Shown: positions 2,624-45,910 of the stretch, piece after piece | Position numbering within the stretch: the first letter of the stretch is position 1 | How the letters are laid out: every line of letters starts with the position of its first letter | NCBI GenBank assembly: GCA_016234735.1 | Contig: JACRAN010000290.1 | Coordinates: 1-48,532 of the forward strand | Source: Bacteroidota bacterium | Lineage (GTDB): Bacteria > Bacteroidota > Bacteroidia > Chitinophagales > Saprospiraceae | Direction of reading: 5' to 3' | DNA: 48,532 nucleotides | Program-made: the position numbers and the translations under genes | The notes under the pieces: generated by a model | Databases searched by the model: none | What the model was told of the DNA's origin: nothing | What the model saw: the letters and a program-made list of their open reading frames with translations, nothing else

Positions 2624-3601
2624 ATGATAAATATTGATTCTTCAAAAATAATAGCCAACGCCCGGCGTACCCTCGGCATCGAAATCGAGGCATTGGAAAA
2701 CCTGCGGGCAGCCATCGATGGTGTTTTTTGCGCCTTCGTGGAGGCCGTGTTCCATGCAAGAGGCCGGGTCGTCGTCACCGGGGTGGGCAAAAGTGCCATC
2801 GTCGCCCAGAAAATCGCCGCCACGCTGAACAGCACCGGCACCCCCGCCCTGTTCATGCACGCCGCCGATGCCATTCATGGCGACCTCGGCATGATCCAGC
2901 CCGGCGACGTGGTGCTCTGCCTGAGCAAAAGCGGCGACACCCCCGAAATCAAAGTGCTGCTGCCCCTGCTGCGGGGCATGGGCAACTCTGTGGCGGCCAT
3001 GACCGCCAATGCCCAGTCCTGGCTCGGCACTCAGGCTGATTTTGTGCTGCTCACCCCCATCTTGCAGGAGGCCGACCCCAACAACCTCGCCCCCACTGCC
3101 AGCACCACGGCGCAAATGGCGCTTGGGGATGCGTTGGCCATCGCCCTGCTTTCGTTGCGGGGTTTCACGCCGGGCGATTTTGCGCAGTTCCATCCCGGCG
3201 GTACGCTCGGCAAGCAACTTTACCTGCGGGTGGGCGACCTCAGTTCACTGCACGAACGCCCGGCGGTTTCACCGGCTACCAAAATACCGCAAGCCATCCT
3301 CGAAATGACGACCAAACGACTCGGCTGCACGGTGGTACTGGACGACGGTGAAATCTGTGGCATCGTCACCGACGGCGACCTGCGCCGGATGCTCGAACGC
3401 CACGCCGGGCAGGATTTCTCGCACCTCACCGCTGCCGAAGTGATGTCCGCCTCGCCCAAAACCATCGAAAAAAACGACCTCGCAGCGGAGGCCCTGGCGC
3501 TCATGCGGCAGCACAGCATCACGCAGTTGGTAGTGGTGGAAAACGGCGCGTACTGCGGCATCGTCCACTTGCACGACTTAATTCGGGAGGGACTCGTATG
3601 A
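2624..3601 (+). CDS. kdsD: Arabinose-5-phosphate isomerase (KpsF/GutQ family)
   Basis: Converts D-ribulose 5-phosphate to D-arabinose 5-phosphate, the first step towards the lipopolysaccharide sugar Kdo, in the cytoplasm. The 325-residue protein has an N-terminal SIS domain (VVTGVGKSAIVAQKIAATL near 50-68; SKSGDTPEI near 101-109; FHPGGTLGKQL) and a C-terminal pair of CBS domains from about residue 205. The start was placed at the ATG at 2624 because the protein then begins INIDSSKIIANARRTL, as the family does; the in-frame upstream stretch is low-complexity AT-rich sequence. The stop codon overlaps the ATG of the next gene (ATGA). A GATTTAC word array begins at the last stop-codon bases. Confidence 0.93.
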   Translation: MINIDSSKIIANARRTLGIEIEALENLRAAIDGVFCAFVEAVFHARGRVVVTGVGKSAIVAQKIAATLNSTGTPALFMHAADAIHGDLGMIQPGDVVLCLSKSGDTPEIKVLLPLLRGMGNSVAAMTANAQSWLGTQADFVLLTPILQEADPNNLAPTASTTAQMALGDALAIALLSLRGFTPGDFAQFHPGGTLGKQLYLRVGDLSSLHERPAVSPATKIPQAILEMTTKRLGCTVVLDDGEICGIVTDGDLRRMLERHAGQDFSHLTAAEVMSASPKTIEKNDLAAEALALMRQHSITQLVVVENGAYCGIVHLHDLIREGLV

Positions 3602-4668
3602 TTTACGATTTACGATTTACGATTTACGATTGGGGGAGGTCGTGGTTTTTTTTGGGAGGCTTTGCTTTGATGTTGTCTGCATGTAAAAATGAGCCTCGCC
3701 ACGTCACCCCTGCATTTTATCACTGGCAGACCCACCTGCAACTCACTGAAAACGAGCGGCTTTACCTCGATTCGCTGGGGGTGAAAAAACTGTACGTCAA
3801 GTTTTTCGATGTCGATTGGGACGAGGCGAGCAGACAGCCCGTACCGTTGGCCATCGTTGAAATTGACACGGCGAGGCTGGACGGCCTTGAAATCGTGCCC
3901 ACTGTTTTTATCACCAACCGTACTTTTTTGAACTTGAAACTGGAGGGAACCGAGGCGCTGGCCAGTCGCATTTTTCAAAAAATAAATGCGCTGTACCCTG
4001 CGCCCCACCGGGAAATCCAGTTCGACTGCGACTGGACGGAGCAAACGAGAGACAAATTTTTTGCCCTGTTGGAGCATTTCAAAAAACAAATGACTACCTC
4101 ACCTCTCACCTCTCACTCCTCACGTCTCTCCGCCACCATCCGCCTGCACCAACTCAAGTTTTTTGAAAAAACGGGTGTGCCGCCTGTTGACCGGGGGATG
4201 CTGATGTGCTACAACATGGGCGACCTGGAAGCCTGGGAGACGGAAAATTCCATCCTCGATTTGGAAACAGCAAAAAAATACCTGCCCGGTGGCAAATCAA
4301 ACTACCCGCTACCACTTGACGTGGCACTGCCCTGCTTCCGCTGGGGGGTGCTGTTTCGGGACAGGGAAATGATCAGACTCATCAACAACCTCAGTGGGGC
4401 GGACCTGGAGGATACCCTCCGTTTTTCAAACACAGCCGCCAATCGTTGCGAAGTAAAAAAAAGCACCTACCTGCAAGGACACTACCTCTACGCTGGCGAC
4501 CAAATTCGGTTGGAGGGTGTGTCGCCTGAGGCGCTGAAACTGGCTGCACACCTATTAAATAAGGTGTGCGCCCGACCGGAAGCCCCGGTGGCATTTTCCC
4601 ATCTGGACACAGCTCCCGTCCGGCTTTTTCCGAAGGGAAAAATGTTGGAAGTAATCGAACAGTTCTGA
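3598..4668 (+). CDS. Putative lipoprotein, possibly DUF3142-like
   Basis: A 356-residue protein of unknown function, probably anchored to a membrane by lipid. A hydrophobic stretch ending in the lipobox LSAC is seen at about residues 18-29, and the mature part looks like a TIM-barrel-type fold (VKKLYVKFFDVDWDE, then IQFDCDWTEQ, then RGMLMCYNMG). Such segments recall the uncharacterised DUF3142 family, but this is recollection and not a search. The only usable start is the ATG at 3598, which overlaps the kdsD stop. The first 10-12 residues (IYDLRFTIYD) are therefore encoded by a GATTTAC heptamer array. A second array of CTCACCT-type heptamers lies inside the gene at about residues 165-178. Confidence 0.72.
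   Translation: MIYDLRFTIYDWGRSWFFLGGFALMLSACKNEPRHVTPAFYHWQTHLQLTENERLYLDSLGVKKLYVKFFDVDWDEASRQPVPLAIVEIDTARLDGLEIVPTVFITNRTFLNLKLEGTEALASRIFQKINALYPAPHREIQFDCDWTEQTRDKFFALLEHFKKQMTTSPLTSHSSRLSATIRLHQLKFFEKTGVPPVDRGMLMCYNMGDLEAWETENSILDLETAKKYLPGGKSNYPLPLDVALPCFRWGVLFRDREMIRLINNLSGADLEDTLRFSNTAANRCEVKKSTYLQGHYLYAGDQIRLEGVSPEALKLAAHLLNKVCARPEAPVAFSHLDTAPVRLFPKGKMLEVIEQF
3600..3634 (+). repeat. Heptamer word array GATTTAC (x4) at a gene junction
   Basis: Four exact GATTTAC heptamers in register followed by a degenerate fifth (GATTGGG). It starts in the kdsD stop codon and forms the 5' end of the following lipoprotein frame. The reverse-complement word GTAAATC occurs in the arrays at 17234 and 12132. 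Confidence 0.9.
4091..4132 (+). repeat. Heptamer word array CTCACCT inside a coding sequence
   Basis: The words CTCACCT, CTCACCT, CTCACTC and CTCACGT follow one another in exact 7-nt register, with flanking words TGACTAC and CTCTCCG. Six heptamers make 42 nt, which is 14 codons, so the frame of the lipoprotein is kept. The encoded segment is Ser/Thr/Leu/His-rich and sits between the predicted fold elements. Confidence 0.75.
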
Positions 4669-4778
4669 CCCGTGAGGTCGGGCCGGTTTTTTATCGAAAC
4701 GACATTTCGTACCTTGTCGCCAAACCAATGCCGCCCTGCCCGGTGCGGCATTTTGGAGAAAACTAAATTTTCCTGAAA

Positions 4779-6176: not shown

Positions 6177-6231
6177 CGCTGACCTTGTTTTTGTGAAAAA
6201 CGACAGCAGGGCGGCTCTTCCCGCCAGCGTC
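6175..6231 (+). other. Branched hairpin structure 3' of the beta-CASP gene
   Basis: An outer stem GACGCTG (6175-6181)/CAGCGTC (6225-6231) encloses two smaller hairpins: GTTTTT-gtg-AAAAAC (6187-6201) and GGCGG/CCGCC (6210-6225). Together they could form a three-way junction beginning in the stop codon. It may act as a transcript end or 3' stabiliser, but there is no downstream T-run. The fold is read by eye. Confidence 0.45.
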
Positions 6232-6293
6232 CCAACTTTCGCAAGCCATTTTCCGTTTTGGAAGTTAAGTGAACGATTCACGCGCTGCCCGGT

Positions 6294-6301
6294 TATTTTT
6301 G
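6294..6301 (+). promoter_or_regulatory. Putative -7 box TATTTTTG upstream of the 6354 lipoprotein gene
   Basis: Exact match to the Bacteroidota TAnnTTTG box, about 52 nt before the chosen ATG. No TTG lies at the usual 18-21 nt upstream, so this is a half-match only. Confidence 0.35.
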
Positions 6302-6353
6302 CAAAAAAAACAGCTTGAAAGGCGTAGTTGGGCCAGGCGAAAAATCTTTTTCA

Positions 6354-7886: not shown

Positions 7887-7892
7887 GTCAGA

Positions 7893-7955
7893 ATGGAGAA
7901 TTGAAAATGGAGAATTGATCCATTTTCAATTCTCCATTTTTCATTTTCAAAATGG
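7893..7955 (+). repeat. Palindromic heptamer word array (ATGGAGA/ATTGAAA)
   Basis: Nine heptamers in register. The left arm (7892-7911) and right arm (7919-7938) are perfect 20-nt reverse complements separated by 7 nt. The last word contains the ATG of the next gene at 7952. As RNA it would form a long AU-rich hairpin immediately before the start codon, so it may dampen translation or act as an attenuator. Confidence 0.88.
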
Positions 7956-9274: not shown

Positions 9275-9290
9275 TTTCCGGTATTTCATA

Positions 9291-9334: not shown

Positions 9335-9347
9335 GTCTTCACAAAAG

Positions 9348-12131: not shown

Positions 12132-12162
12132 AAAAATCAGTAATCGTAAATCAGTCAAATCC
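12132..12162 (-). repeat. Short heptamer array (GTAAATC family)
   Basis: AAAAATC, AGTAATC and GTAAATC follow one another in 7-nt register, then a degenerate AGTCAAATCC. It lies 25 nt upstream of the coiled-coil gene start. GTAAATC is the reverse complement of the word at 3600. Confidence 0.6.
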
Positions 12163-13637: not shown

Positions 13638-14828
13638 ATGAACGCACAGAAACATAAAAAACACGAAGAAATCGCCCGGCCCGGCCTCGGCACTTTTGGC
13701 CGCAACGAGTGGGCCATCCTCGGCACCAACTGTGGCGACATCAAAAAACTGACCGCCCAACTTTGTGAGGCATTTGCCCCAAAATGGAAAATCGCCTACG
13801 TGGATGCCGACCACCAATCGGCAGTCGGCAGCCCAAAGTTGGCAGTTGGCAGTCCGAAATCCGAAATCACACCTCCGAAATCCTTCGTGGCGATGGAGTA
13901 CGCCGACAAAATCGGCTTCCATCGGCTCGATTTTTCAGGCAAATTGGACAGCTACCAGTACCGCCCGCTTTTCAGCGGCATGGATGTCGTGCTGGTGAAC
14001 GGCAACCATTTCACCGCCAAAAAACAGGTGGTGGTCATCGACCCGAAGAAGGAGGATTCGCTGCGCCGCAAACTCGACCGCCTGACGGATGTGCAATTGA
14101 TTTTGCTGACGGATGGCGTGGACGGGCCGTTTGGTTTTTTGAAGGAAAATCTGAAGGATTTTAATAAAATTCCAGTTGTCCAACTTGCTGATTTTCAGAA
14201 GATTAAACCGTTTTTTGAAAAATGGCTGGAGGCTGCGGTCCCACCACTCAACGGCCTCGTGCTGGCCGGTGGCAAGAGCCGCCGGATGGGCACCGACAAG
14301 AGTGTGCTGCAATACCACGACAAACCCCAGCGGGACGTGATGCTGGATTTGTTGGACAAGTTTTGTCAAAAAACGCACCTCTCCTGCCGACCTGATCAGG
14401 CAGGCGAATTGTTTTACACCCACGATGTGTTGCCCGACACGTTCCTTGGCCTGGGGCCGATGGGGGCCATCCTCTCGGCCTTCCGGCAGCAGCCGGACAG
14501 CGCCTGGCTGGTGGTGGCCTGCGACCTGCCGTTGCTTGATGAAGCCACGCTCCGATTTTTGGTGGAAAACCGCAACCCGTCGGCAATGGCTACCAGTTTT
14601 CGCAGCCCCGAAAACGAGTTCCCGGAGCCGCTCGTCGCCATTTGGGAGCCGAAAAGCTACCCCGTGCTCCTGCAATTTTTAGCGCAGGGCTACTCCTGCC
14701 CCCGCAAAGTGCTCATCAACTCGCCCGTCCACTTGCTGGATGCCCCCAACTCCGATGCCCTGACGAACGTGAACACGCCGGACGAGGTGGATGTGGTTTT
14801 GAAGAAACTCGGGGTGACGGATTTGTAA
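13638..14828 (+). CDS. Molybdenum cofactor guanylyltransferase-like protein with a degenerate MobB-like N-terminal domain
   Basis: A 396-residue two-part protein. The C-terminal half (from about residue 203) is a MobA-type nucleotidyltransferase: LVLAGGKSRRMGTDKSVL at 208-225, the acidic VACDLPLL near 293-300, and NVNTPDE near the end. It is expected to add a nucleotide to molybdopterin. The N-terminal half (about 20-190) resembles the GTP-binding protein MobB (WAILGTNCGDIKKL, then KIAYVDADH, and LLTDG), but the P-loop lacks the GKT/S residues, so nucleotide hydrolysis there is doubtful. A 63-nt heptamer array is inserted in frame at residues 61-82. It lies directly behind moaC, which fits a role in cofactor synthesis. 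A general NTP-transferase role is the alternative. Confidence 0.85.
   Translation: MNAQKHKKHEEIARPGLGTFGRNEWAILGTNCGDIKKLTAQLCEAFAPKWKIAYVDADHQSAVGSPKLAVGSPKSEITPPKSFVAMEYADKIGFHRLDFSGKLDSYQYRPLFSGMDVVLVNGNHFTAKKQVVVIDPKKEDSLRRKLDRLTDVQLILLTDGVDGPFGFLKENLKDFNKIPVVQLADFQKIKPFFEKWLEAAVPPLNGLVLAGGKSRRMGTDKSVLQYHDKPQRDVMLDLLDKFCQKTHLSCRPDQAGELFYTHDVLPDTFLGLGPMGAILSAFRQQPDSAWLVVACDLPLLDEATLRFLVENRNPSAMATSFRSPENEFPEPLVAIWEPKSYPVLLQFLAQGYSCPRKVLINSPVHLLDAPNSDALTNVNTPDEVDVVLKKLGVTDL
13819..13881 (+). repeat. In-frame array of nine heptamers inside the mobA-like gene
   Basis: Consecutive words CGGCAGT, CGGCAGC, CCAAAGT, TGGCAGT, TGGCAGT, CCGAAAT, CCGAAAT, CACACCT, CCGAAAT in exact 7-nt register. Nine words are 63 nt, or 21 codons, so the frame is preserved. 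Two word families share the register, and CCGAAAT is also the word of the array at 36101. Confidence 0.9.
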
Positions 14829-14844
14829 AAAATGTGGATTTAGC

Positions 14845-14899
14845 TGTTATAATCTCCGATTTTATATTAATTTGGCCGTTGTAATCTCCAAATTTATAT
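14845..14899 (+). repeat. Two 23-nt direct repeats before the DUF4143 ATPase gene
   Basis: Copies at 14845-14867 and 14877-14899 match at 19 of 23 positions, with the shared core TAATCTCC and shared 3' end TTTATAT. They start 32 bp apart, close to three helical turns, and the second ends in the ATG at 14898. The layout suggests operator half-sites bound on one face of the DNA. Confidence 0.7.
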
Positions 14900-16031
14900 G
14901 ATTCCGAGAATTTTAACCGACCTGCTTCTGTCAAGGACTAACCAGGGGAAAGCCTTGATTCTGCTCGGTGCACGGCAGATTGGCAAGACAACTTTGGTAA
15001 AAAACCTGGCGGAGAGGTTCCCGGAACACGAATCAACCTACCTGAACTGCGATGAACAGTCGACCCGAATGTTGTTGGAAGATACTTCAATTGCCACATT
15101 GTCCCGGATAGTGGGGGAGTCCAAACTGGTCGTCATTGACGAAGCGCAGCGGGTAAAAAACATTGGCCTGACACTTAAATTGATAACCGACAACATGCCT
15201 TTCGTTCAGTTGATAGTCACGGGGTCGTCGGCACTCGACATCAGCAGCGAAATCAATGAACCCCTGACAGGCCGCAAGTTCGAGTATCAAATGTTTCCCG
15301 TCTCCTACCCCGAACTCATTCGTCATGAAGGTTTCGTGAAGGCTGTCGGGCAGTTGGAAGAGCGGATGGTGTTTGGTATGTACCCTGAAATTGTGATGCG
15401 CCCCGCGCAGGCCCAACTCCTCCTGCAAAACCTTGCGGGCAGCTACCTGTACAAAGACCTGTACAACCTTGACGGGATCCGCAAACCACAATTGCTGGAG
15501 AAACTTGTACTGGCATTGGCCTGGCAGATTGGCCATGAAGTGTCGTATTCGGAGTTGGCAAATACTTTACAGATAAGCAAGGAAACGGTCAGCAATTACA
15601 TCGACTTGCTGGAAAAGGCGTTCGTGGTGTTCAGGCTTGGGCCATTCAGCAGAAATCTGCGGAACGAAATAACTACCAGTCGCAAGATTTATTTTTATGA
15701 CACGGGCATCCGCAACGCAGTCATCGACAACTTCGAGCCACTCTCCAAACGGGCGGATGTCGGCCAGCTTTGGGAAAATTTCGCTATTGCCGAACGGCTG
15801 AAAGCCAACAGTTATGCGGAGCGGTTCAGGCGGAACTATTTTTGGCGCACCCATGCCCAACAGGAAATAGACTATGTAGAAGAAACGGCCGGCAAATTGT
15901 TCGCTTACGAGTTCAAATGGAATCCTGCAAAAAAAGGAAGGTTCTCCACTGCTTTCACCTCCAGCTATGAAGTAGCAGAAACCATGACAGTTACTCCCGC
16001 CAACTTCATTGATTTTTTGGAAAAGCCTTAA
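14898..16031 (+). CDS. AAA-family ATPase with DUF4143 domain
   Basis: A 377-residue member of the AAA_14/DUF4143 group, a common solitary ATPase family of uncertain function in bacteria and archaea. Walker A GARQIGKTTL is at about 24-33 and Walker B LVVIDEAQRV at about 77-86. A sensor-type segment LIVTGSSALDI follows, then GRKFEYQMFPVSYPEL. The C-terminal DUF4143 part holds a winged-helix-like stretch (SYSELANTLQISKETVSNYI) and the VRKIYFYDTGIRNAVI-type segment, ending with an Asp/Glu..Lys pattern (EIDYVEE ... AYEFKWN) that resembles a PD-(D/E)XK nuclease core. The start is immediately preceded by a pair of direct repeats. It is closed by a bidirectional terminator shared with moxR. Confidence 0.9.
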   Translation: MIPRILTDLLLSRTNQGKALILLGARQIGKTTLVKNLAERFPEHESTYLNCDEQSTRMLLEDTSIATLSRIVGESKLVVIDEAQRVKNIGLTLKLITDNMPFVQLIVTGSSALDISSEINEPLTGRKFEYQMFPVSYPELIRHEGFVKAVGQLEERMVFGMYPEIVMRPAQAQLLLQNLAGSYLYKDLYNLDGIRKPQLLEKLVLALAWQIGHEVSYSELANTLQISKETVSNYIDLLEKAFVVFRLGPFSRNLRNEITTSRKIYFYDTGIRNAVIDNFEPLSKRADVGQLWENFAIAERLKANSYAERFRRNYFWRTHAQQEIDYVEETAGKLFAYEFKWNPAKKGRFSTAFTSSYEVAETMTVTPANFIDFLEKP

Positions 16032-17067: not shown

Positions 17068-17074
17068 GTTTATT

Positions 17075-17109
17075 GATTGACGATTGACGATTGACGATTG
17101 ACGATTTTC
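17075..17109 (-). repeat. Heptamer array GATTGAC (x4) upstream of moxR
   Basis: Four exact GATTGAC words in register followed by GATTTTC, beginning 8 nt from the moxR start codon. It faces the array at 17234-17275, whose words are of the reverse-complement type, so the pair brackets about 125 nt of unique sequence as an imperfect long-range inverted repeat. Confidence 0.88.
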
Positions 17110-17233
17110 AAACCGCTGATTTTCAGTTGTTTGTAAAAAATTCAATCATCGATGCCCATCGTATTTTGTGCGTGACGTTTTTGCAACCTGCTAAAAACGA
17201 CCTTCCAACAGGTTTTGTTTCGAGGCAGCAACC

Positions 17234-17275
17234 CACAATCGTAAATCGGAAATCCCAAATCGTAAATCCACTATC
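17234..17275 (-). repeat. Heptamer array GTAAATC/GGAAATC overlapping the cysS stop
   Basis: Words CACAATC, GTAAATC, GGAAATC, CCAAATC, GTAAATC and CACTATC in exact 7-nt register. The last word contains the cysS stop codon at 17271-17273. Confidence 0.85.
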
Positions 17276-18773
17276 CTTTCGACCAGGTTGCACCATCCTT
17301 GCCGTCCTTCACGACGATTTCCAGTTCTTTGAGCGCATCCCTGATTTTGTCGGAAGTGCCCCAGTCCTTGTTGGTGCGGGCTGTTTGGCGCATGTCGAGG
17401 ATGAGCTGCATCAGGCCGTCCACCACGCCGTTGCCGGAAGAGTCGAAATTTTCCGCCAGCAGACCGAAGATATCGAAAATGAAGTCGTTGAAGGTTTTTT
17501 TCAAACGCTCCAGCGTGTCCGGTGTGAGGTCGCTGAACGACAGTTGGCCACCCTTCAGGCTGTTGATTTTTGTGACCAACTCGAACAGGCTGGCCAACGC
17601 CTTCGGCGTGTTGAAGTCATCGCTCATGTCCTCGGAAGCCAGGTCGATGAGGCCGTTGATTTCTTTGTCCAAAGCGCCCGCACTACCGCCACCGGTGTGC
17701 GTCATTTCCTGCAAAACTTTGAGTGCCTCCATCAGTCGGCGATAGCCTTTTTCAGCGGCTTGCAGTGCCTCGTCGGTGAGGTCGAGGGTGCTGCTGTAAT
17801 GCGATTGAAGCATGAAAAAGCGCACCACCATTGGCGAGTAGGCTTTGGTCAGGTGCGAACTTTGGCCAGTGAACAGTTCGCCGGGCATGATGGAATTGCC
17901 GTCGCTTTTCGACATTTTTTTGCCGTTGAACAGCAGCATGTTGCCGTGCAGCCAGTAGTTGCAGGGGGCAGCGCCGCAGACACCGTAGTTCTGGGCGATT
18001 TCGTTTTCGTGGTGCGGGAATTTGAGGTCGCTGCCACCGCCGTGGATGTCGAATTTTTCCCCTAAATATTTGGTGCTCATCACCGAGCATTCGAGGTGCC
18101 AGCCTGGGAACCCCACCGACCAGGGCGAGTTCCAGCGCATGAGATGTTCGGGGGCGGCTTTGATCCAGATGGCAAAATCGGAGGGGTGGTTTTTCTCGTC
18201 CTGGTTTTTCAGGTTGGCACGGCTCTCGGCGATGAGGTCTTCGATTTTGCGGCCGGAGAGGGTGCCGTACACGTTTTTTTCTTTGGCAAACTTGAAGGTG
18301 TCGAAATAAACCGAGCCGTTTTTCACATACGCCAACCCATTGTCGAGAATAGTCTGCACCATCTCGATTTGCTCTGGGATGTGCCCTGTGGCCCTTGGCT
18401 CGATGGCTGGGGCCGCCACGTTGAACACCTTCATCATTTCGTGGAATCCGTTCATGTATCGCTGTACGATTTCCATCGGTTCGAGCTGTTCGAGGCGGGC
18501 TTTTTTGGCAATTTTGTCCTCCCGCCCGGTGTCCTCGTCCCCTTCGAGATGGCCCACGTCGGTGATGTTGCGCACGTAGCGCACCTTGTAGCCGAGGTAT
18601 TGCAGGTAGCGGTACACCACATCGAAGCTGACGAACGTGCGGCAGTTGCCGAGGTGAACGTCGCTGTACACGGTCGGGCCGCAGACGTACATGCCCACTT
18701 GGCCTTCATGGATGGGCTTGAAAACTTCTTTTTTCCCTGAATAACTGTTGAAAACCTGTAATTCGTTTTTCAT
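17271..18773 (-). CDS. cysS: Cysteine--tRNA ligase
   Basis: Class I aminoacyl-tRNA synthetase that charges tRNA-Cys, a monomeric cytoplasmic zinc enzyme. The 500-residue protein has the HIGH-type motif HLGN at 40-43 right after the zinc ligand C31 (VGMYVCGPTVYSDVHLGN). Further zinc-site residues appear in WHLECSVM and the GGGSDLKFPHHENE block, and the KMSKS loop is GKKMSKSDGN. The start at 18773 gives the family N-terminus KNELQVFNSYSGKKEVF. A TACCTTTG box ends only 5 nt before this ATG, which predicts a leaderless or nearly leaderless mRNA. The 3' end is embedded in a heptamer array. Confidence 0.97.
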   Translation of the reverse strand: MKNELQVFNSYSGKKEVFKPIHEGQVGMYVCGPTVYSDVHLGNCRTFVSFDVVYRYLQYLGYKVRYVRNITDVGHLEGDEDTGREDKIAKKARLEQLEPMEIVQRYMNGFHEMMKVFNVAAPAIEPRATGHIPEQIEMVQTILDNGLAYVKNGSVYFDTFKFAKEKNVYGTLSGRKIEDLIAESRANLKNQDEKNHPSDFAIWIKAAPEHLMRWNSPWSVGFPGWHLECSVMSTKYLGEKFDIHGGGSDLKFPHHENEIAQNYGVCGAAPCNYWLHGNMLLFNGKKMSKSDGNSIMPGELFTGQSSHLTKAYSPMVVRFFMLQSHYSSTLDLTDEALQAAEKGYRRLMEALKVLQEMTHTGGGSAGALDKEINGLIDLASEDMSDDFNTPKALASLFELVTKINSLKGGQLSFSDLTPDTLERLKKTFNDFIFDIFGLLAENFDSSGNGVVDGLMQLILDMRQTARTNKDWGTSDKIRDALKELEIVVKDGKDGATWSKG

Positions 18774-22467: not shown

Positions 22468-23230
22468 ATGCTGACGCAATCCGGTTGGTCAGGTCCACAA
22501 AATCAGCCACGCTCAACACTTCGGGCCGCAGCCTGAAAAAATCTTCCTCGAACACGGCAGGGTTGTCGAAAAACGGCTTGAGCGTGTTGCGCAGCATCTT
22601 CCGGCGCTGACTGAAGGCCTGCTTCACCACCCTTCGGAACAGCGCCTCGTCGCAGCCCAGTTTTTCCTCGCGCCGGGTCAGGCGGATGACCCCGGAAAGC
22701 ACCTTCGGCGGCGGGTTGAAATTGCCGCTGCCCACCGAAAACAAATATTTCCCATCGTAAAATCCCTGCGTCAGTACACTGATGACCCCGTAATCCTTGC
22801 CACCGGGCTTGGCGATGATGCGTTCGGCCATGTCCTTTTGAAACATGCCCACCAACTGTGGAACAAGCGTCCGAAATTCCACCATTTTGAAGACAATCTG
22901 GGAGGAAATGTTGTAGGGGAAATTGCCAATGAGGTAAAATTGATGCCCCGGAAAAATAGTTTGGAGGTCGAGTTTCAAAAAATCCCCGGCGATGACCCTG
23001 CCATGCAGTTGCGTGAAATTTTCGTGGAGGTAGTCCACCATGTCGTTGTCGGCTTCCACCACTTTGAGTTCAAAATCTTTCTCCAGCAGGTATTTTGTGA
23101 GCATACCTTTGCCGGGGCCGACTTCCAGCACCTTCGCCTGGCTGCCCTCCACTACCAGGGCATCGGCGATGCGGCGGGCAATATCTTCGTTGGTCAAAAA
23201 GTGCTGTCCGAATGATTTTTTGGCTCGCAT
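22466..23230 (-). CDS. rsmA: 16S rRNA (adenine1518-N6/adenine1519-N6)-dimethyltransferase
   Basis: Dimethylates two adjacent adenosines in the 3' hairpin of 16S rRNA using S-adenosylmethionine, a late step of 30S assembly (KsgA). The 254-residue protein shows KKSFGQHFLTN at its start, the SAM-binding motif LEVGPGKGMLT at about 35-45, and the catalytic NFPYN at 103-107. The start at 23230 is the family start. The longer frame translates a TGAGGAA word array (PHPSFLIP) and should not be used. It converges on the NlpC/P60 gene. Confidence 0.96.
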   Translation of the reverse strand: MRAKKSFGQHFLTNEDIARRIADALVVEGSQAKVLEVGPGKGMLTKYLLEKDFELKVVEADNDMVDYLHENFTQLHGRVIAGDFLKLDLQTIFPGHQFYLIGNFPYNISSQIVFKMVEFRTLVPQLVGMFQKDMAERIIAKPGGKDYGVISVLTQGFYDGKYLFSVGSGNFNPPPKVLSGVIRLTRREEKLGCDEALFRRVVKQAFSQRRKMLRNTLKPFFDNPAVFEEDFFRLRPEVLSVADFVDLTNRIASA

Positions 23231-23279
23231 AGGTGAAATGACTAATTTTGGCGTTTTCCGGGCCGGAAAGATACGTTTT

Positions 23280-23310
23280 TCAGGGATGAGGAATGAGGGG
23301 TGAGGAACGA
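23280..23310 (+). repeat. Heptamer array TGAGGAA (x3) upstream of rsmA
   Basis: TGAGGAA, TGAGGGG, TGAGGAA in register at 23287-23307, with degenerate flanks. On the other strand it reads as the TCACCTC type seen inside the gene at 4091. Confidence 0.7.
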
Positions 23311-23450
23311 TGGATTTACAAAACACTGGTTTTCAGTGTCTTAAATTTTACTTTTGCTTTGTTTGCCTCTTGATTTTCCGGCCAATAATTTGTTGTTGAA
23401 ACTTGTTGCGATGGTTTTCAGGGGCGGGAAATCCTTTTTTTGCCAACCAT

Positions 23451-23490
23451 TTCAAACATTTTCAAACAACCTCAAACCATCTCAAATTTG
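23451..23490 (+). repeat. Decamer word array (TTCAAACATT family) before pdxA
   Basis: Four 10-nt words in register: TTCAAACATT, TTCAAACAAC, CTCAAACCAT, CTCAAATTTG. The same family recurs at 45801-45910. It supplies the sequence around the likely non-ATG start of pdxA. Confidence 0.85.
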
Positions 23491-24633
23491 GAACAAATAA
23501 CTGGATACATCGAGCAAGATAACGAAACCGAACATCTGCCGCCTTCCGTCAACAAGCACAACAAACCCGTGCTCGGCATCACCGCCGGTGACATCAACGG
23601 CATCGGGTTGGAAGTGATACTGAAGGCACTTTCCCACCGAAAAATCCTCGACATCTGCGTCCCGGTGATTTACGGTTCGTCAAAAGTGGTTTCCTACCAT
23701 AAAAATATCGTGGCGCTGGACGATGTCGCGTTCGTCGGCCAACGCAACGCCGAGCGGTTGCAGTTCGACAAAATCAACGTCATCAATATCTGGCAGGACA
23801 ACGTGAACATCACCCTCGGCAAGCCCACCGACCTCGGCGGGAAATTTGCGCAACTGAGCCTCGAAGCTGCGGTGAAGGACCTGAAACTGGGCCTCATCGA
23901 TGCCCTCGTGACAGCGCCCATCCACAAAAAATCCATGCAGTTGGCAGGCTTCGAGCATGTCGGGCACACGGAGTACCTCACGACGGAATTCAAAGCCGCC
24001 GACAGCCTGATGCTGCTGGCCAGCGACCGCCTGCGCGTGGCACTGGCATCGGCCCATGTGCCGCTGAAAGACGTGGCAAAAACCATTACTAAAGAACGGA
24101 TTATCAGCAAATTGCGCATTTTCAGCGAGACGCTCCGCATCGACTTCGGCATCGAGCGGCCCAACATCGCCGTGCTCGGCCTGAACCCCCATGCTGGCGA
24201 GGAAGGCATGCTGGGTGACGAGGAAGAAAAAATAATCCGACCCGCCGTCGTCGAGTGCAAAAAGAACGGCATGATGGCGTTCGGCCCCTTCTCTGCCGAC
24301 GGATTTTTCGGCTCCGGGCAGTTCAACAAGTTCGACGGCATACTGGCCATGTACCACGACCAGGGACTGATCCCGTTCAAGGCGCTCACTTTCGGCAGCG
24401 GGGTGAACTACACCGCCGGGCTTCCCGTCATCCGCACCTCGCCCGACCACGGCACGGCCTTCGACCTGGCCGGTAAAAACGAGGCCAACCCTTCGTCGTT
24501 CCTCCATGCCATGTTCATGGCCATCGACATCTACCGCAACCGCAAGGAGTACATGGATTTGAAAAAGAACGCCGTGCGCCGGGTGGAAGTGGAAATCGAA
24601 AAGGAAGAAGGCGGTGCCACGCACTCAGACTGA
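23488..24633 (+). CDS. pdxA: 4-hydroxythreonine-4-phosphate dehydrogenase PdxA
   Basis: NAD-dependent oxidation of 4-hydroxythreonine 4-phosphate in the DXP-dependent pyridoxal phosphate pathway. The protein has KPVLGITAGDINGIG near its N-terminus, the catalytic metal-binding His motifs (FEHVGHTEYL, LNPHAGEEG) and the C-terminal MYHDQGLIPFK and TSPDHGTAFD blocks with the third His. No in-frame ATG exists before these motifs. TTG at 23488 is the most likely start, with TTG at 23440 inside the word array or GTG at 23569 as alternatives. The last would remove the first beta strand. pdxJ is not in the window. Confidence 0.93.
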   Translation: MEQITGYIEQDNETEHLPPSVNKHNKPVLGITAGDINGIGLEVILKALSHRKILDICVPVIYGSSKVVSYHKNIVALDDVAFVGQRNAERLQFDKINVINIWQDNVNITLGKPTDLGGKFAQLSLEAAVKDLKLGLIDALVTAPIHKKSMQLAGFEHVGHTEYLTTEFKAADSLMLLASDRLRVALASAHVPLKDVAKTITKERIISKLRIFSETLRIDFGIERPNIAVLGLNPHAGEEGMLGDEEEKIIRPAVVECKKNGMMAFGPFSADGFFGSGQFNKFDGILAMYHDQGLIPFKALTFGSGVNYTAGLPVIRTSPDHGTAFDLAGKNEANPSSFLHAMFMAIDIYRNRKEYMDLKKNAVRRVEVEIEKEEGGATHSD

Positions 24634-24640: not shown

Positions 24641-24720
24641 GGTTGATACAGGTTTATAAGAGTTGATAAAAGGTTGATTATCAACCCTTATAAACCTCAT
24701 CAACTCTCATCAACCCTCAC
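24641..24720 (+). repeat. Palindromic decamer array (GGTTGAT/ATCAACC) between pdxA and the ndpA-like gene
   Basis: Eight 10-nt words in register. The first four carry GTTGATA-type words and the last four their reverse complements (ATCAACC, TCAACTC), so the whole forms one long imperfect hairpin centred at about 24679. It fills the spacer between two tandem genes and begins 8 nt after the pdxA stop. Confidence 0.88.
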
Positions 24721-36054: not shown

Positions 36055-36055
36055 C

Positions 36056-36130
36056 GATTTCGGATATGGGATTTCGGATTTCGGAAGACCCACGGCACTT
36101 CCGAAATCCGAAATCTGAATTCCGAAATCG
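36056..36130. repeat. Palindromic heptamer array GATTTCG / CCGAAAT
   Basis: Left arm: GATTTCG, GATATGG, GATTTCG, GATTTCG (36056-36083). Right arm: CCGAAAT, CCGAAAT, CTGAATT, CCGAAAT (36101-36128). Each arm keeps the 7-nt register, and the arms are reverse complements around a GC-rich loop. It lies between convergent stop codons and may serve as a bidirectional terminator. CCGAAAT also occurs inside the mobA-like gene at 13854. Confidence 0.88.
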
Positions 36131-38860: not shown

Positions 38861-38877
38861 AAAATCTGGCTTGGCAT

Positions 38878-39717: not shown

Positions 39718-39721
39718 GACA

Positions 39722-39775: not shown

Positions 39776-40185
39776 CATTTTATCATAACTCCCCTGCGTA
39801 GCAGCACGGGAATGGTGGTGAAATTATCTTCCGAAATGCTGCCCCGCACGAAGACGTACTTTTTGTCGTACATGTAGCCGTCGTAGGTGAAGCTCACCCA
39901 GTATTCATTGGCGATGTCGAACAACTTCGTCTGAATCGGCTCGACCAACAGGGCCTGCTTCGGACCGATTTCATTGAAAAAATGCCGGAGGATGGTCGTT
40001 TTCATTTGCTCCCCATCCACTTCTCCGTAGCCCCTTGAATTTACCAACACATTTTCAATGGCATCCCCTTTCAGGTTCAGGAGGTAAACATCCCACATCT
40101 CATGGTCTTGTACTCCATCTTCCGTTCTTGGCAAGATAGCAATGGCCAGTTCTTCCACTTTGTATTCAGGAATATCTTTTTTCAT
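39775..40185 (-). CDS. Conserved protein of unknown function
   Basis: A 136-residue soluble protein with alternating beta/alpha character: KDIPEYKVEELAIAILPRTE, then WDVYLLNLKGDAIENVLVNSRGYG, a FFNEIGPKQALLVEPI helix and the aromatic NEYWVSFTYDGYMYDKKYVF block. I recall uncharacterised Bacteroidota proteins of this pattern, but no function or named domain. It lies between lipB and the thioesterase on the same strand and may share their transcript. Confidence 0.75.
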   Translation of the reverse strand: MKKDIPEYKVEELAIAILPRTEDGVQDHEMWDVYLLNLKGDAIENVLVNSRGYGEVDGEQMKTTILRHFFNEIGPKQALLVEPIQTKLFDIANEYWVSFTYDGYMYDKKYVFVRGSISEDNFTTIPVLLRRGVMIK

Positions 40186-40272
40186 GGGCCATGATTCTCG
40201 ATTGTGCCTGTCGATATTTTGATAACCATTGCATCAAATTGATTTTCAGGCAATTGAAGAATTGGAAATACT

Positions 40273-40986: not shown

Positions 40987-41092
40987 GTTGCAGAGGGCGG
41001 GGGAAAACTGCCCCCCTCCGAAAAAAGCGGTGCGAAGTTAGGAATTCCACTGGATAATAAAAATCGACGTTTCGGTGCGCGGTGTCAGCCCG

Positions 41093-41824: not shown

Positions 41825-41850
41825 GGTGAAATGATTTAGAAGCAGCCAAG

Positions 41851-43314: not shown

Positions 43315-43431
43315 GGACTTTCGTTTGAACTTGGGTATTTTTGAACTGAAATATTTGCCCAAAAGGCAATCGCAAAGAGAAGAAATTGGCGTGAGATGGG
43401 AAGCCGTATTTTCACAAAGATTCAGCAACGG

Positions 43432-43863
43432 CTACTGCCAATGAAGCACGAAATCACCATTCAACTTCGCTGCCACATACATGCCGTAAGGCAATTGCAG
43501 TTCGTAGGATGGGTTGGAGGTCAGCCCGTTCAGGGATTCCATGCTGCATTCGGCAGCTTTGAGGTATTTGGGATCGCTCGTTTCTTTCCACGCATTGTAC
43601 AAAACCCAAGCGTAAGCACCTGCCGCTTCCGGTTCTTTCACGCCGTTGTCGTTGGGCTGCATTTGCAGAAAACTCCAGGCACGGTGGTTCATGTCGGCCT
43701 GCTGCCAAGGCGCATCGCTACCGCCCATTGCCCGCACTGCCTCCGCAAAACGGTCGGCAATGGTAGTGAACTGGAAACCAAGGCTGGTTTTTGGTTGAGC
43801 GCAAAATTGAAGAAGGAGGTACTGGATTTCGTTGGGGAAGGTTTCTGAATTTGAAGGATGCAA
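43432..43863 (-). pseudogene. Fragment of a larger protein, probably a six-hairpin glycosidase-like gene
   Basis: A 143-residue frame with no ATG (the first codon is TTG) and no signal or domain start. The interior (QQADMNHRAWSFLQMQPNDN, then PEAAGAYAWVLYNAW, SNPSYELQLPYGMYVAAKLN) looks like the helical hairpins of large alpha/alpha-barrel carbohydrate-active proteins. Both ends stop abruptly. On its upstream side is a terminator-like hairpin (43878-43912), so it is cut off from any former 5' part. I read it as a decayed remnant beside the repeat-rich gap. Confidence 0.6.
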
Positions 43864-43877
43864 ATACAGAAAAAGAA

Positions 43878-43912
43878 AACGCCGATTCGGGGGTTCCGAA
43901 TCGGCGATTTTG
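43878..43912 (-). terminator. Terminator-like hairpin upstream of the gene fragment
   Basis: Perfect 10-bp stem GCCGATTCGG (43881-43890)/CCGAATCGGC (43896-43905). On the minus strand it is followed by a T-rich run, so it would stop transcription coming from the right before the gene fragment. Confidence 0.7.
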
Positions 43913-43945
43913 ATGTAGCCAAAATGGCCTACGCACGGCGGCCTG

Positions 43946-43963
43946 TCCCGATAGCTATCGGGA
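43946..43963. repeat. Perfect 18-nt palindrome (CCCGATAG/CTATCGGG)
   Basis: TCCCGATAG followed directly by CTATCGGGA. I recall this palindrome as a dispersed repeat in other Bacteroidota genomes, which I cannot verify here; only one copy was noticed in the window. Confidence 0.6.
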
Positions 43964-43998
43964 GCAACCCATGCCCGTTTACAAGCCGAAGCCGGTAA

Positions 43999-44159
43999 CG
44001 AGCGGCGAAATGTTTCTTTCCAAACCCATATTCCGCCCGAAAGCCGCTCGTCAACGGGCGGAATCCGCTATGCGCTTCGAACAAAATCATCTTTTGGGAA
44101 GGGGGTTGCCATTAGCCAAAAAATGCGCACGGGCGGTGTTGCCCATGCGTATTTTTTTT
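43999..44159 (+). ncRNA. Candidate structured RNA: possible pseudoknot followed by a terminator
   Basis: Stem A pairs CGAGCGGC (43999-44006) with GCCGCTCG (44043-44050). Stem B pairs ATTCCGCCCG (44030-44039) with CGGGCGGAAT (44055-44064). The halves alternate A-B-A-B, an H-type pseudoknot layout, though the 4-nt second loop may be too short for both stems at full length. About 60 nt later CGCACGGGC/GCCCATGCG (44126-44149, one mismatch) is followed by T8, a plausible intrinsic terminator on the plus strand. No coding potential was seen. The 5' end is unknown. Confidence 0.35.
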
Positions 44160-44203
44160 GTCAAAACTAAACCCAAACTGGGTCAAGCCGTACTTTGTAA
44201 GTA

Positions 44204-44262
44204 GCTCGACGGACAGGAGTCTGCCACTTTAGTCCGCATAAAACCTGGAGGTTTTAGCGAGC
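44204..44262 (+). other. Compact three-way-junction repeat-like structure
   Basis: Outer stem GCTCG (44204-44208)/CGAGC (44258-44262) encloses CGGAC (44210-44214)/GTCCG (44232-44236) and the palindrome TAAAACCT/AGGTTTTA (44239-44256). The compact nesting suggests a folded element such as a dispersed palindromic repeat unit. Confidence 0.4.
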
Positions 44263-44363
44263 GGGGATGTTGCCAGCGGGGGGTTTTTATCCCCATGCAA
44301 GGTTGGTAGGTAGGTTTTGATGCCCCCTACTTGGACAAAATTCGATTTATCGTCTCAATGGGC

Positions 44364-44371
44364 TATTTTTG
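44364..44371 (+). promoter_or_regulatory. TAnnTTTG box (TATTTTTG) before the triple hairpin
   Basis: Exact match to the -7 element about 240 nt upstream of the M20 gene and directly before the triple-hairpin repeat. No well-spaced TTG partner. Confidence 0.3.
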
Positions 44372-44393
44372 CTGTATGCAGGAGTTCTGCAAA

Positions 44394-44498
44394 AGCTCCA
44401 TCAGAGCTAAATCTTTGTAGCACTGACGAATAACGTTTCGTGAGCGTTCCATCGGAACGCTATCCTTGGCATCTAAGATACCGTTCCGATGGAACGGT
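44394..44498 (+). repeat. Triple-hairpin palindromic repeat
   Basis: Three short hairpins with similar loops: AGCTC-catca-GAGCT (44394-44408), GCGTTCC-atc-GGAACGC (44444-44460) and ACCGTTCC-gat-GGAACGGT (44480-44498). They are separated by spacers carrying ATCTTTGTAGCA and ATCCTTGGCA-type segments. The second and third hairpins are variants of one sequence in opposite orientation. Confidence 0.65.
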
Positions 44499-44609
44499 GC
44501 AAAACATCCTTTGGCAGCTCTACTCTGGGACTTTTACACCCCATGTTCGGTGACTAAAGCTCCGATTAGCCTCTAACATAAACGGATATGTCCGTTAAAT
44601 CCTGTCATT

Positions 44610-45800
44610 TTGAAAGAAAAAATCAAACAACTCGCTGCCCGCTTCCATTCGGAAACCGTTGAAATCCGGCGACACCTGCACGCTCACCCGGAGTTGTCGT
44701 TTCACGAAAAAGAGACAGGGCAGTTCATCGCCCGCAAGCTGGGCGAGCATGGCATCCGGCATGAGCATGGTTGGGGCGAGAACGGCGTGGTAGCCTACAT
44801 TGAGGGAAAAAATGCCGACCGGAAAACCATCGCCCTGCGGGCCGACATCGACGCACTGCCCATCGCCGAGGCGAACCAGGTGCCGTACAAGTCTCAAAAC
44901 CAGGGCGTTATGCATGCCTGCGGGCACGACGTACACAGTGCGTCGCTGCTCGGAGTCGCCCGGATTTTGGATGCACTCCGGGGAGAGTTCGAGGGCACTG
45001 TGAAGCTCATTTTCCAACCTGCCGAGGAAAAACTGCCCGGCGGGGCTTCCATCCTTATTTCAGAGGGGGTGCTGGAGAACCCCGCCCCGGCGGTTATTTT
45101 GGGGCAACACGTGCTGCCTGCGCTGGCGACGGGCAAGGTGGGTTTCAAGCCCGGCATGTTCATGGCCAGTGCCGACGAACTCTACGTGACCGTGCGAGGC
45201 AGGGGCGGCCATGCCGCCGTGCCGCATGAGTGCGTTGACCCGGTGCTCATCGCCTCGCATATCGTGGTAGCGCTGCAGCAAATCGTCAGCCGCAACGCCA
45301 ACCCCATCGTGCCTTCGGTGCTGACTTTTGGTAAAATCAATTCGACAGGCGGTGCCACGAACGTGATTCCGAACGAGGTGAAATTAGAAGGGACTTTCCG
45401 CACGATGGACGAACAATGGCGGGCCATTGCGCACGGGCGCATGAGAAACATGGCCGAGGGCATCGCCGCAGGCATGGGCGGCTCCTGCGATTTTCGGATT
45501 GAAAAAGGCTACCCGTTCCTGAAAAACGATGAGGTGCTGACGCTGCGCTCCCGCCAGTTTGCGGCGGAATACCTCGGAGAGGAGAACGTCATTGACCTGC
45601 CCATGCGGATGACGGCGGAGGATTTCGCTTATTATTCGCAGAAAATACCGGCCTGTTTCTACCGGCTTGGCACCGGCAACGTCGCCAGGTGCATCACCTC
45701 GCCCATCCACACCGACACGTTCGACATCGATGAGGACAGCCTGCTGACCGGCATGGGGCTGATGAGTTGGCTGGCGGTGAAGGAGTTGGAGGTTTTTTAA
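44610..45800 (+). CDS. M20-family amidohydrolase/carboxypeptidase
   Basis: A 396-residue zinc amidohydrolase of the hippurate/N-acyl-amino-acid hydrolase (M20D) group. HLHAHPELSF at 22-31, LRADIDALPI at 76-85, HACGHDVH at 102-109 (metal ligands C104 and H106) and QPAEEKLPGGA at 137-147 are the family blocks. It begins at TTG 44610 (KEKIKQLAARFHSE); no ATG lies in frame at a suitable place. A small palindrome AACGGA/TCCGTT sits 14 nt upstream. It is followed through a decamer word array by an MFS transporter, which may import its substrate or export its product. Confidence 0.92.
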   Translation: MKEKIKQLAARFHSETVEIRRHLHAHPELSFHEKETGQFIARKLGEHGIRHEHGWGENGVVAYIEGKNADRKTIALRADIDALPIAEANQVPYKSQNQGVMHACGHDVHSASLLGVARILDALRGEFEGTVKLIFQPAEEKLPGGASILISEGVLENPAPAVILGQHVLPALATGKVGFKPGMFMASADELYVTVRGRGGHAAVPHECVDPVLIASHIVVALQQIVSRNANPIVPSVLTFGKINSTGGATNVIPNEVKLEGTFRTMDEQWRAIAHGRMRNMAEGIAAGMGGSCDFRIEKGYPFLKNDEVLTLRSRQFAAEYLGEENVIDLPMRMTAEDFAYYSQKIPACFYRLGTGNVARCITSPIHTDTFDIDEDSLLTGMGLMSWLAVKELEVF

Positions 45801-45910
45801 GATTGTTTGAAATTGTTTAAGGTCGTTTGAAATTGTTTGGGGTTGTTTGGGGTTGTTTCAAATTATTGTATGTCAAAAGACTTAAACGACTTCAAACCAT
45901 TTCAAACAAG
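45801..45910 (+). repeat. Decamer word array (TTGTTTGAAA family) with inverted arm
   Basis: Seven 10-nt words in register (45801-45870): AGATTGTTTG, AAATTGTTTA, AGGTCGTTTG, AAATTGTTTG, GGGTTGTTTG, GGGTTGTTTC, AAATTATTGT. After 10 nt come three reverse-complement-type words (ACTTAAACGA, CTTCAAACCA, TTTCAAACAA; 45881-45910). It fills the spacer between the amidohydrolase stop and the MFS start. Confidence 0.92.

Follow-up and report, generated by a model that had tools for sequence, protein, structure and literature searches.

Short tandem-word arrays in a Saprospiraceae genome are mostly arms of hairpins with a G-first polarity

Strict-register arrays in the window and the genome

The window, the whole 48,532-nt stretch analysed here (contig JACRAN010000290.1, assembly GCA_016234735.1), comes from a member of the Saprospiraceae, Bacteroidota, whose genome (G000) is 99% complete. 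Short words repeat in it in strict register; the arrays below are given on the + strand, and the hairpins carry no strand. Tandem Repeats Finder detects 11 of the 12 array loci named in an earlier, sequence-only reading, confirming that they are real, while the remaining one, at 12132, goes unreported and consists of only a few poor copies. A perfect, single-armed GATTTAC array of 4.6 copies (3600..3631) begins at the stop codon of a SIS/CBS gene (2561-3601), with no second arm reported in its gap. At 7892..7938, mixed AATGGAG and AATTGAA units make a hairpin with a perfect 20-bp inverted repeat (arms 7892-7911 and 7919-7938). Two arrays that had been listed separately proved to be the first and second arm of a single inverted repeat within the gap 17068-17270: a perfect GATTGAC array, also of 4.6 copies (17075..17106), and a GTAAATC-type partner (17237..17268), 2 nt away from where the cysteinyl-tRNA synthetase gene (17271-18773) has its stop codon. 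The divergent gap 23198-23487 holds a weak TGAGGAA array (23282..23307, 73% matches), and a period-10 CAAAC array (23450..23486) lies 1 nt from the predicted start codon of a pdxA-type gene (23488-24633).

Three further hairpins lie in the rest of the window. The one at 24642..24704 is built of period-10 GGTTGATAAG-type units (arms 24642-24669 and 24678-24704). By eye, similar inverted repeats stand 3' of the adjacent gene in G001, G004, G006 and G009; G008 and G010 have other words, and there the gene that follows is not orthologous to the one in this window. A GATTTCG hairpin (36055..36130, arms 36055-36087 and 36098-36130) fills an entire convergent gap from stop codon to stop codon, and a period-10 GTTTG array (45802-45864) has an inverted copy, forming a hairpin at 45803..45909 with arms 45803-45828 and 45884-45909. 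The sequence-only reading placed every array at a gene junction, but two, which it listed at 4091 and 13819, fall inside genes. A CTCACCT array (4098..4128) within the gene 3670-4668 encodes SPLTSHSS in a variable loop, where relatives have different peptides or a short loop. Weak xGGCAGT and CCGAAAT arrays (13818..13883, 66% matches) within the gene 13638-14828 encode SAVGSPKLAVGSPKSEI, and the counterpart in G008, the sole ortholog aligned, is not an array.

We counted runs scoring at least 11 at each period in the window and compared them with the mean of 10 simulations. Period 7 gave 6 runs (also 3 at 14 and 4 at 21) and period 10 gave 3 (also 1 at 20 and 2 at 30), each against a simulated 0.0; periods 6 and 12 had one run apiece, and 8, 9, 11 and 13 had none. 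At the same threshold, a sample of the same genome picked blind to arrays (45 stretches, 467 kb) contained 66 runs at period 7, compared with 0.7 simulated, and 26 at period 8, compared with 1.3. Period 10 gave 4 runs (simulated 0.0), as did periods 6 and 9 (0.7 each). A later sample (20 stretches, 184 kb, threshold 13) yielded 21, 6 and 1 runs at periods 7, 8 and 10, 4 at period 3, and none at periods 5, 6, 9 or 11-13, while 150 kb of E. coli K-12 at threshold 13 had no run at all across periods 2-24. The proposed enrichment of fixed periods 7 and 10 is therefore strong for 7 and weak for 10; the latter is a local minority, and the second period of the genome is 8. A large excess of 7-nt units over other periods is a feature that these arrays have in common with known bacterial heptameric tandem repeats.

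Paired arms, G-first polarity and placement

The arrays are mostly arms of hairpins with a fixed polarity, an arrangement missed by the sequence-only reading. Defining an inverted partner as a pairing score of at least 12 within 200 nt, we found one for 72 of 119 arrays (53/84 in gaps or at gene edges, 19/35 inside genes) and for 0/119 when the same arrays were set at random places; the other 47 lack a partner. All 37 paired arrays, including 12 within genes, have their G-rich arm on the 5' side. These pairs span 17 word classes, 20 of them have no GGG in either arm, and only 6 contain a G-quadruplex motif (G3-loop1-7). Detecting periodic hairpins by pairing alone gave the same picture, with 28 of 29 G-first and, in the later sample, 9 G-first, 0 C-first and 1 tie. 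The exceptions amount to that single C-first hairpin among 29, and to 1/16 plus one tie in an array-selected set.

The polarity also points outward from genes. Within 30 nt of an edge, arrays are G-rich rather than C-rich outward by 22 to 2 at stops and 17 to 1 at starts (later sample: 8 to 2 with 1 tie, and 3 to 0). Beyond 30 nt the counts are 3 to 0 with 1 tie at stops and 2 to 1 at starts (later sample: 0 to 1 and 4 to 1). Stop edges without arrays show no outward G bias (108 vs 121). At start edges an outward G bias exists even where there is no array (215 vs 49 gaps), so the rule is informative mainly at stops. Two genomes of other Bacteroidota families, G293 and G328, have periods 7 and 8 and one periodic hairpin in all, a weakly C-first one in the distant G293. 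A cyanobacterial Trichormus plasmid has few arrays and one G-first pair; its two outward-oriented AATTCGC arrays are C-rich, not G-rich, outward.

The order of variant units is mirrored strongly only in hairpins selected for pairing (1172.5 vs 993.7, sd 21.4). It was not significant in pairs not selected in this way (p = 0.07) or in a per-hairpin test with arms trimmed by pairing (combined p = 0.25), and the two arms of a hairpin were not significantly more alike than arms of different hairpins with that word (p = 0.11). Mixed-unit arms are identical in 6 of 55 periodic hairpins and, by eye, nearly identical in G006 and G008 at the junction orthologous to 36055.

The hairpins occupy gene edges and variable segments of proteins. 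The claim that tandem, convergent and divergent junctions are used alike does not hold, as arrays are sparse between divergent genes: the 184-kb sample has 0.22 arrays per kb of divergent gap, compared with 0.92 for tandem and 1.21 for convergent gaps (6/83 divergent gaps with an array vs 48/317 others, Fisher p = 0.07). By midpoint, 36 of 86 arrays are coding (some do no more than overlap the end of a gene), compared with 84% of the sequence. Many arrays lie in frame within genes and others abut gene edges; 12 whole hairpins sit inside predicted genes. Among three genes with in-gene arrays that we compared with orthologs, one gave a clean absence, a 16-residue in-frame stretch missing from all 8 orthologs found.

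Word turnover and recurrence among genomes

Comparison with relatives shows that sites can persist while their words are replaced. Eleven orthologous array sites of G001 and G013, with alignments classified by hand, comprise 4 with the same word, 3 with an array in only one genome, 3 with another word and 1 that is unclear. The convergent junction at 36055 carries hairpins of different words in different species, and in G002, G003 and G005 it is a gap of a few nucleotides without an array. Most of the arrays compared are not conserved base by base, so that the refuting condition attached to the earlier reading did not arise for period 7. The period stays constant while the word differs both between loci and between orthologous sites, which to this extent upholds the suggestion that one process with a fixed step generates the arrays. 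Length changes by whole units, and a loop can invert: at one locus pair, G001:C7 and G013:C619, arm length has changed by 7 nt on one side and, as judged by eye, 14 nt on the other, and the loop sequences align in inverted orientation with a score of 13 (2 when direct; 1 of 5000 shuffles reaches 13).

The words form a limited set. We grouped 84 seven-nt arrays into 34 word classes, compared with 81.0 at random, the largest with 12 members. One composite 21-mer occurs in 16, 15, 7, 7, 5 and 2 copies in six of the 14 genomes of the genus and in 0 copies in the other eight, and its reversed control occurs in 0 copies. In a phylum sample, three tandem copies of GATTTCG are missing from the five other family members, and four genomes from different families have them. 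Array load in 13 same-genus genomes, sampled at only about 20-44 kb each, ranges from 2.7 to 35.4 per 100 kb, and these genomes did not split cleanly into array-rich and array-poor subclades for gene correlation.

Origin of the arrays and related repeats

We lean modestly toward reading most arrays as intact or relic arms of small DNA elements that fold back on themselves. In each element, two arrays of one word (7 or 8 nt, rarely 10) would face each other across a unique loop, with the G-rich, C-poor strand nearly always first, 5' to 3', and so outward from the gene edge on both strands. It also seems somewhat likely that the arrays arise by a DNA-level process, which combines 7-8-nt slippage, template switching by fold-back and a degree of copying from locus to locus, and that they are tolerated instead of each word being selected for. 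The hairpins would be made during replication: the polymerase would stall in copying the G-rich template of the second arm, and the nascent strand would then either fold back onto the freshly made first arm and use it as template, or re-anneal with a shift of one 7-8-nt unit. Repeated, these events could add whole units to arrays, carry variants from one arm to the other and invert loops. In C-first hairpins the stall would precede any nascent arm to fold onto, so that they would not grow and a G-first polarity would result. The recurrence of composite arms at many loci implies that other loci sometimes serve as template, and the recurrence and swapping of words require a copying step beyond slippage. 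Selection would mainly purge arrays that break genes or promoters.

A less likely account makes the hairpins functional structures, such as terminators, mRNA-end stabilisers or BIME-like elements, in which selection maintains pairing while words drift. Their position at gene ends and near absence between divergent genes (periodic hairpins in 1/57 divergent gaps vs 38/272 others) would fit, as would the hairpins that different species form from different words at junction 36055. Against this, 12 entire hairpins lie within predicted genes, three relatives leave no space for a hairpin at 36055, and Rfam has no match within the window at gathering scores. Intrinsic terminators pair a hairpin with a U-tract, and at least 5 T of 8 were found in only 2/49 tails, compared with 14/231 control octamers. 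Mismatches on the coding strand of periodic hairpins in tandem gaps show no G.U excess (11 G.U vs 19 A.C; non-periodic hairpins have 16 vs 9). The earlier view that terminator function is insufficient is borne out by the missing U-tracts and in-gene hairpins, not by equal use of junctions.

Also doubtful, and slightly more so, is a mobile palindromic element in several word families that depends on an enzyme acting in trans, such as a REP-type (RAYT) Y1/HUH transposase. The copies are dispersed, composite arms recur at many loci and in six genomes of the genus, one in-frame stretch is missing from orthologs, and 12 of the 14 genomes have Y1_Tnp matches. In REP/BIME systems with RAYT, copies share a conserved palindrome that also flanks the transposase gene. 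Here, the loops of 31 pairs compared appear unrelated by eye, and the sole strong Y1_Tnp gene of the study genome is flanked by different palindromes, with no array 0.5 kb before or 2.6 kb after it. Additionally, G002 (89% complete) and G013 (78%) have arrays and no Y1_Tnp match. Templated addition by a reverse transcriptase, whether of DGR or telomerase-like type, was rejected as the word writer of the study genome, which has no RVT_1 match; 7 of the 14 genomes do, with no evident relation to array load.

Simple-sequence slippage alone, with heptamers and octamers as the natural slip length and hairpins as coincidence, is improbable. Whole-unit length changes, the 47 partnerless arrays and a known general heptamer excess, for which a polymerase footprint has been hypothesized (PMC4692102), speak for it. 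Slippage gives no opposed arms, however, and leaves fixed polarity, matching mixed-unit arms, loop inversion and word replacement unaccounted for. G-quadruplex elements, as proposed for GGGAATC repeats, are a very improbable explanation despite the G-first polarity, because the four-G-tract motif is confined to 6/37 pairs and those without GGG are all G-first as well.

Repeats of this kind are known from Xanthomonas, Nostoc, Beggiatoaceae and Geobacter, yet unexplained; what is new here is the G-first rule without G-quadruplexes and the swapping of words at fixed sites, neither described among the matches listed, which comprise titles and abstract openings and leave most subscription journals outside the search. 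The GGGAATC and GGGGA(C/T)T heptamers of Xanthomonas and Nostoc are described as mostly intergenic, rare between divergent genes and of unknown function (PMC4692102), and enrichment between genes with rarity between divergent ones is common to our arrays and such SSR/STRR-like repeats. Two Xanthomonas genomes have 70 and 75 convergently oriented pairs, Nostoc few, and we read the former as G-first, like the present hairpins (PMC4692102). That study treats G-quadruplex-forming words, with 83% of the repeats in the same gene context in a second Xanthomonas, whereas G000 has many mostly non-G-quadruplex words, periods 7, 8 and 10, word replacement at orthologous sites and in-frame hairpins.

Arrays of the 7-nt word TAACTGA border genes in Beggiatoaceae, cyanobacteria and some Bacteroidetes and were interpreted as possible translational control (PMC4679880). 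In BOGUAY and Flexibacter they are mostly forward before starts, the lone post-stop Flexibacter set is reversed, and indels between two close Cyanothece strains are mostly in 7-nt increments. That study concerns one word; its orientation rule is missing from the Microcystis sample, and the sections covered give no hairpin rule (PMC4679880). Geobacter metallireducens has a GGGACCG-type heptamer in four copies at 49 places, between and within genes, and, like G000, octamer and heptamer arrays paired on opposite strands; unlike in our reading, they were taken as regulatory RNA or sites for IHF/HU-type regulators (PMC2700814). Quasi-palindrome template-switch mutations were studied in yeast reversion assays, in an abstract without tandem arrays or a genome-wide family (PMC3820800). 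Switching of this type would be expected to push arms toward perfect complementarity and to invert loops; among the hairpins here, exactly matching mixed-unit arms occur in 6 of 55 and an inverted loop at one locus pair.

Rather unlikely, in our judgment, is that a single replication-linked process in Bacteroidota, Xanthomonas, Geobacter and cyanobacteria writes words of 7 or 8 nt as G-first fold-back cassettes, placed at gene edges and in protein loops that tolerate them, and swaps words at fixed sites. Such a process would amount to a DNA family that spreads itself and is united by period and polarity rather than by sequence, and a hitherto unrecognised enzyme might set its step. The hairpin arms, the polarity in non-G-quadruplex words, the kept sites with changed words and the one loop inversion lead to testable predictions about DNA replication, and they caution against annotating every such word as a regulator site. 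Rickettsia palindromic elements resemble the hairpins in being intergenic as well as in frame within genes, and in-frame palindromic stretches missing from orthologs occur here too. The Rickettsia elements form families of 105-146 bp (PMC2229807), whereas G000 has tandem-word arms around seemingly unrelated loops and lacks any one conserved family sequence of 100-150 bp. In-frame repeat peptides such as ISDFGFRIS, IRNPKSEI and SPLTPHPS were seen in variable protein segments, and the arrays provide a possible origin for them.

Period and anatomy of the repeats

The sequence-only reading placed word arrays with fixed periods of 7 or 10 nt at a dozen loci of the window, and TRF detected 11 of the 12. 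The window corresponds to a single contig, C215 (48,532 bases), from an assembled genome of 4.88 Mb; our sampling covered about one-fifth of that genome. In the window, a run-length test over periods 2-30 found six runs at period 7 and three at period 10, each against 0.0 simulated, with echoes at multiples of both. Across 467 kb of this genome, in 45 stretches picked regardless of arrays, period 7 gave 66 runs versus 0.7 simulated and period 8 gave 26 versus 1.3; period 10 gave four versus 0.0, similar to periods 6 and 9. A later set of 20 stretches, scored at a higher threshold, showed the same ranking (21, 6 and 1 runs for periods 7, 8 and 10). Based on the run counts in the window and both samples, we conclude that the 7-nt step is real, as had been claimed, but that the second step is 8 nt and the 10-nt period is a local minority.

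Arrays frequently face an inverted copy of themselves. In 699 kb comprising the window and 65 stretches selected independently of arrays, an inverted partner lay within 200 nt of 72 out of 119 arrays, compared to 0 of 119 when the same arrays were put at random places. The proportion was 53 of 84 for arrays located between genes or at a gene edge, and 19 of 35 for in-gene arrays. Of the array-bearing gaps of 40-400 nt in this set, 30 of 47 contain an inverted repeat scoring at least 14. In the window, the arms of the inverted repeat at 17075 and 17237 make up one element, and the element at 36055 occupies the entire space separating two stop codons.

Using genes called by our own small codon-usage gene finder, we found an inverted repeat scoring at least 14 in 55 of 242 gaps of 40-400 nt, and in none after one shuffle per gap. 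They occurred in 40/166 tandem, 14/37 convergent and 1/39 divergent junctions. The arms were periodic in 29 of the 55 (period 7 in 21, period 8 in six, period 10 in two), and 19 of these 29 hairpins extend to within 20 nt of the gene on either side. Some arrays lie within predicted genes, many of them distant from the gene ends; their peptides are in frame, and codon scores on either side are mostly normal. A 980-kb set, which includes 15 stretches fetched for array hits on their contigs, contains 37 paired arrays, those from the array-selected stretches included, with 12 entirely within genes. One predicted open frame of ~3230 codons, cut at the contig end (stretch L009:3-9698), holds four array hairpins.

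Other repeats share this DNA. Non-periodic gap hairpins with the common core CTCTAACAG(A/G)G (L034:754-827, L034:13585-13710 and L049:5756-5836) suggest a separate intergenic palindrome family of the same genome. A long, MITE-like inverted repeat with ~119-nt arms lies at L050:7310-7633, and a related one at L042:1657-1870. In the window, a 32-nt unit is repeated 1.9 times at 14838-14899, directly ahead of an AAA_14/DUF4143 gene (14898-16031).

Strand polarity of arms and gene edges

The 5' arm was the G-rich strand (G-first) in all 37 paired arrays, which represent 17 word classes and include 20 without GGG in either arm. Periodic hairpins detected by pairing alone were G-first in 28 of 29 cases, and those of the array-selected set in 14 of 16, with one C-first and one tie. 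The same polarity was seen in 4/4 periodic hairpins from same-genus genomes and 1/1 from family or order genomes; the single case in a distant genome of another family (G293) was weakly C-first. Derived from the first sets, the rule was then checked on a later set, where it held (nine G-first, none C-first and one tie, n = 10; pairs 6/6). It cannot depend on transcription direction, because the reverse complement of a G-first hairpin is also G-first.

Gap arrays within 30 nt of a gene edge tend to read G-rich outward: 22 versus 2 at stops and 17 versus 1 at starts; in-gene arrays, those at contig ends and those in gaps shorter than 30 nt were excluded. In the later set, with 13 of 33 arrays excluded (8 in genes, 5 at contig ends), the counts were 8 versus 2 plus one tie at stops and 3 versus 0 at starts. 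Beyond 30 nt, they were 3 versus 0 plus one tie (stops) and 2 versus 1 (starts) in the first set, and 0 versus 1 and 4 versus 1 in the later one. Because array-free start edges are already biased outward (215 versus 49) whereas array-free stop edges are not (108 versus 121), the stop edges carry the weight of this rule. On the sense strand, unpaired in-gene arrays were C-rich in 23 cases, G-rich in 12 and tied in two.

This kind of repeat is already known. In our reading of Rehm et al. (PMC4692102), the heptamer repeats described there follow the same polarity and placement rules, which the authors discuss through G-quadruplexes; in the genome studied here, the rules apply to words unable to form them. 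Two other papers describe heptamer and octamer arrays in pairs in Geobacter metallireducens, with heptamer elements both between and within genes (PMC2700814), and TAACTGA repeats whose gene-edge orientation occurs in some species and is absent from a Microcystis sample (PMC4679880).

Word sharing between loci and turnover between species

The word repertoire is narrow: the 84 arrays with a 7-nt unit use 34 of the 1172 classes that are possible, the biggest holding 12, while a random-word control gave 81.0 classes and a biggest class of 4 in 2000 draws. A composite 21-mer, one of whose units is a variant, was counted 16 times in this genome (13 contigs) and 15, 7, 7, 5 and 2 times in the same-genus genomes G001, G012, G006, G013 and G007, with none in eight other genomes and no reversed control in any. 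Among composite 25-mers in arrays, 73 of 3381 are common to at least two places. The loops of array pairs appear unrelated by eye, and we therefore conclude that loci share arm sequence without movement of the element as a fixed unit. Three tandem copies of GATTTCG were present in five of 296 Bacteroidota genomes, 100 times in this one and 16, 9, 2 and 1 times in four of other families; they were missing from the five other members of this family in that sample, and the reversed control matched once.

The genomes compared are draft assemblies of species representatives, and the changes are thus between species. By eye, the convergent junction at 36055 has GATTTCG hairpins here and in G006, where a variant unit is mirrored in both arms; in G008, an unrelated word forms a hairpin that is near-perfect. 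Hairpins are partial or interrupted in G001, G004, G007 and G013; the gap is a few nucleotides in G002, G003 and G005; the neighboring gene differs in G009 and G012; no hairpin is clear in G010, and no match was obtained for G011. In G007 (stretch L182), a second inverted repeat with ~23-nt arms, GTTCCCTACGGGAATGACAAATG, is nested within the GATTTCG arms. Downstream of a pdxA-type gene (24634), GGTTGATAAG-type inverted repeats with differing unit orders occur in this genome, G001, G004, G006 and G009, the same downstream gene being located only in the first three. Other words stand there in G008 and G010, an AT-rich array in G011 and an ordinary hairpin in G007.

Proteins show comparable changes. 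One segment holds different-word peptides in different species in the gene at 3670-4668 (8 relatives aligned) and in a gene of stretch L065 (12 aligned), which from its motif is presumably an ABC transporter. In a third gene (L055), 16 residues are absent from the 8 orthologs found; those of G001, G009 and G012 have a shorter array peptide at the site, and the gene found no counterpart in 5 of the 13 relatives.

Between G001 and G013, 11 array sites were comparable (surrounding HSPs 83-92% identical), and by our assignment from the alignments four keep the same word, three have an array in one genome and none in the other, three have different words and one is unclear. The period also differs at one different-word site and, by eye, at a second. 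At one of the four kept sites, picked because both genomes carry the composite arm, the two genomes differ by 7 nt in the left arm and, judged by eye, by 14 nt in the right arm, and their loops align inverted (score 13 versus 2, reached by 1/5000 shuffles). Among the results listed in our literature searches, we saw neither the replacement of a word at a fixed site nor an inverted loop described. In G003, successive AGGGAGT/AGGGATG arrays alternate in orientation (L144:17227-17791), as if a whole hairpin had multiplied.

Possible origins of the arrays

Slippage combined with fold-back template switching, both at the DNA level, could generate the arrays and hairpins; such a process explains changes by whole units, arms in opposed orientation, variants that match between arms and the inversion of the loop. 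The polarity might reflect stalling while the G-rich template for the second arm is copied, with the nascent first arm at hand for fold-back, and word replacement would require an additional copying or re-insertion step. Mirroring of units between arms is strong in hairpins selected for pairing; tests otherwise gave p = 0.07 and p = 0.11.

RNA-level explanations of the hairpins fit poorly. U-tracts are absent (2/49 tails versus 14/231 controls), G.U mismatches are not in excess over A.C (11 versus 19), some hairpins lie within genes, and some orthologous junctions are too short for any hairpin. Templated addition by a reverse transcriptase, raised in the sequence-only reading, lost ground, as this genome gave no reverse transcriptase match.

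The palindromes on either side of the genome's single strong Y1 transposase gene do not resemble the arrays. Copies of a GCAACGGGTNTAAAACCCGTTGC-type palindrome flank this RAYT-like gene (532-876 of L014:380-1080, on contig C218), and together they resemble a REP-transposase accompanied by REPs of its own, separate from the word arrays.
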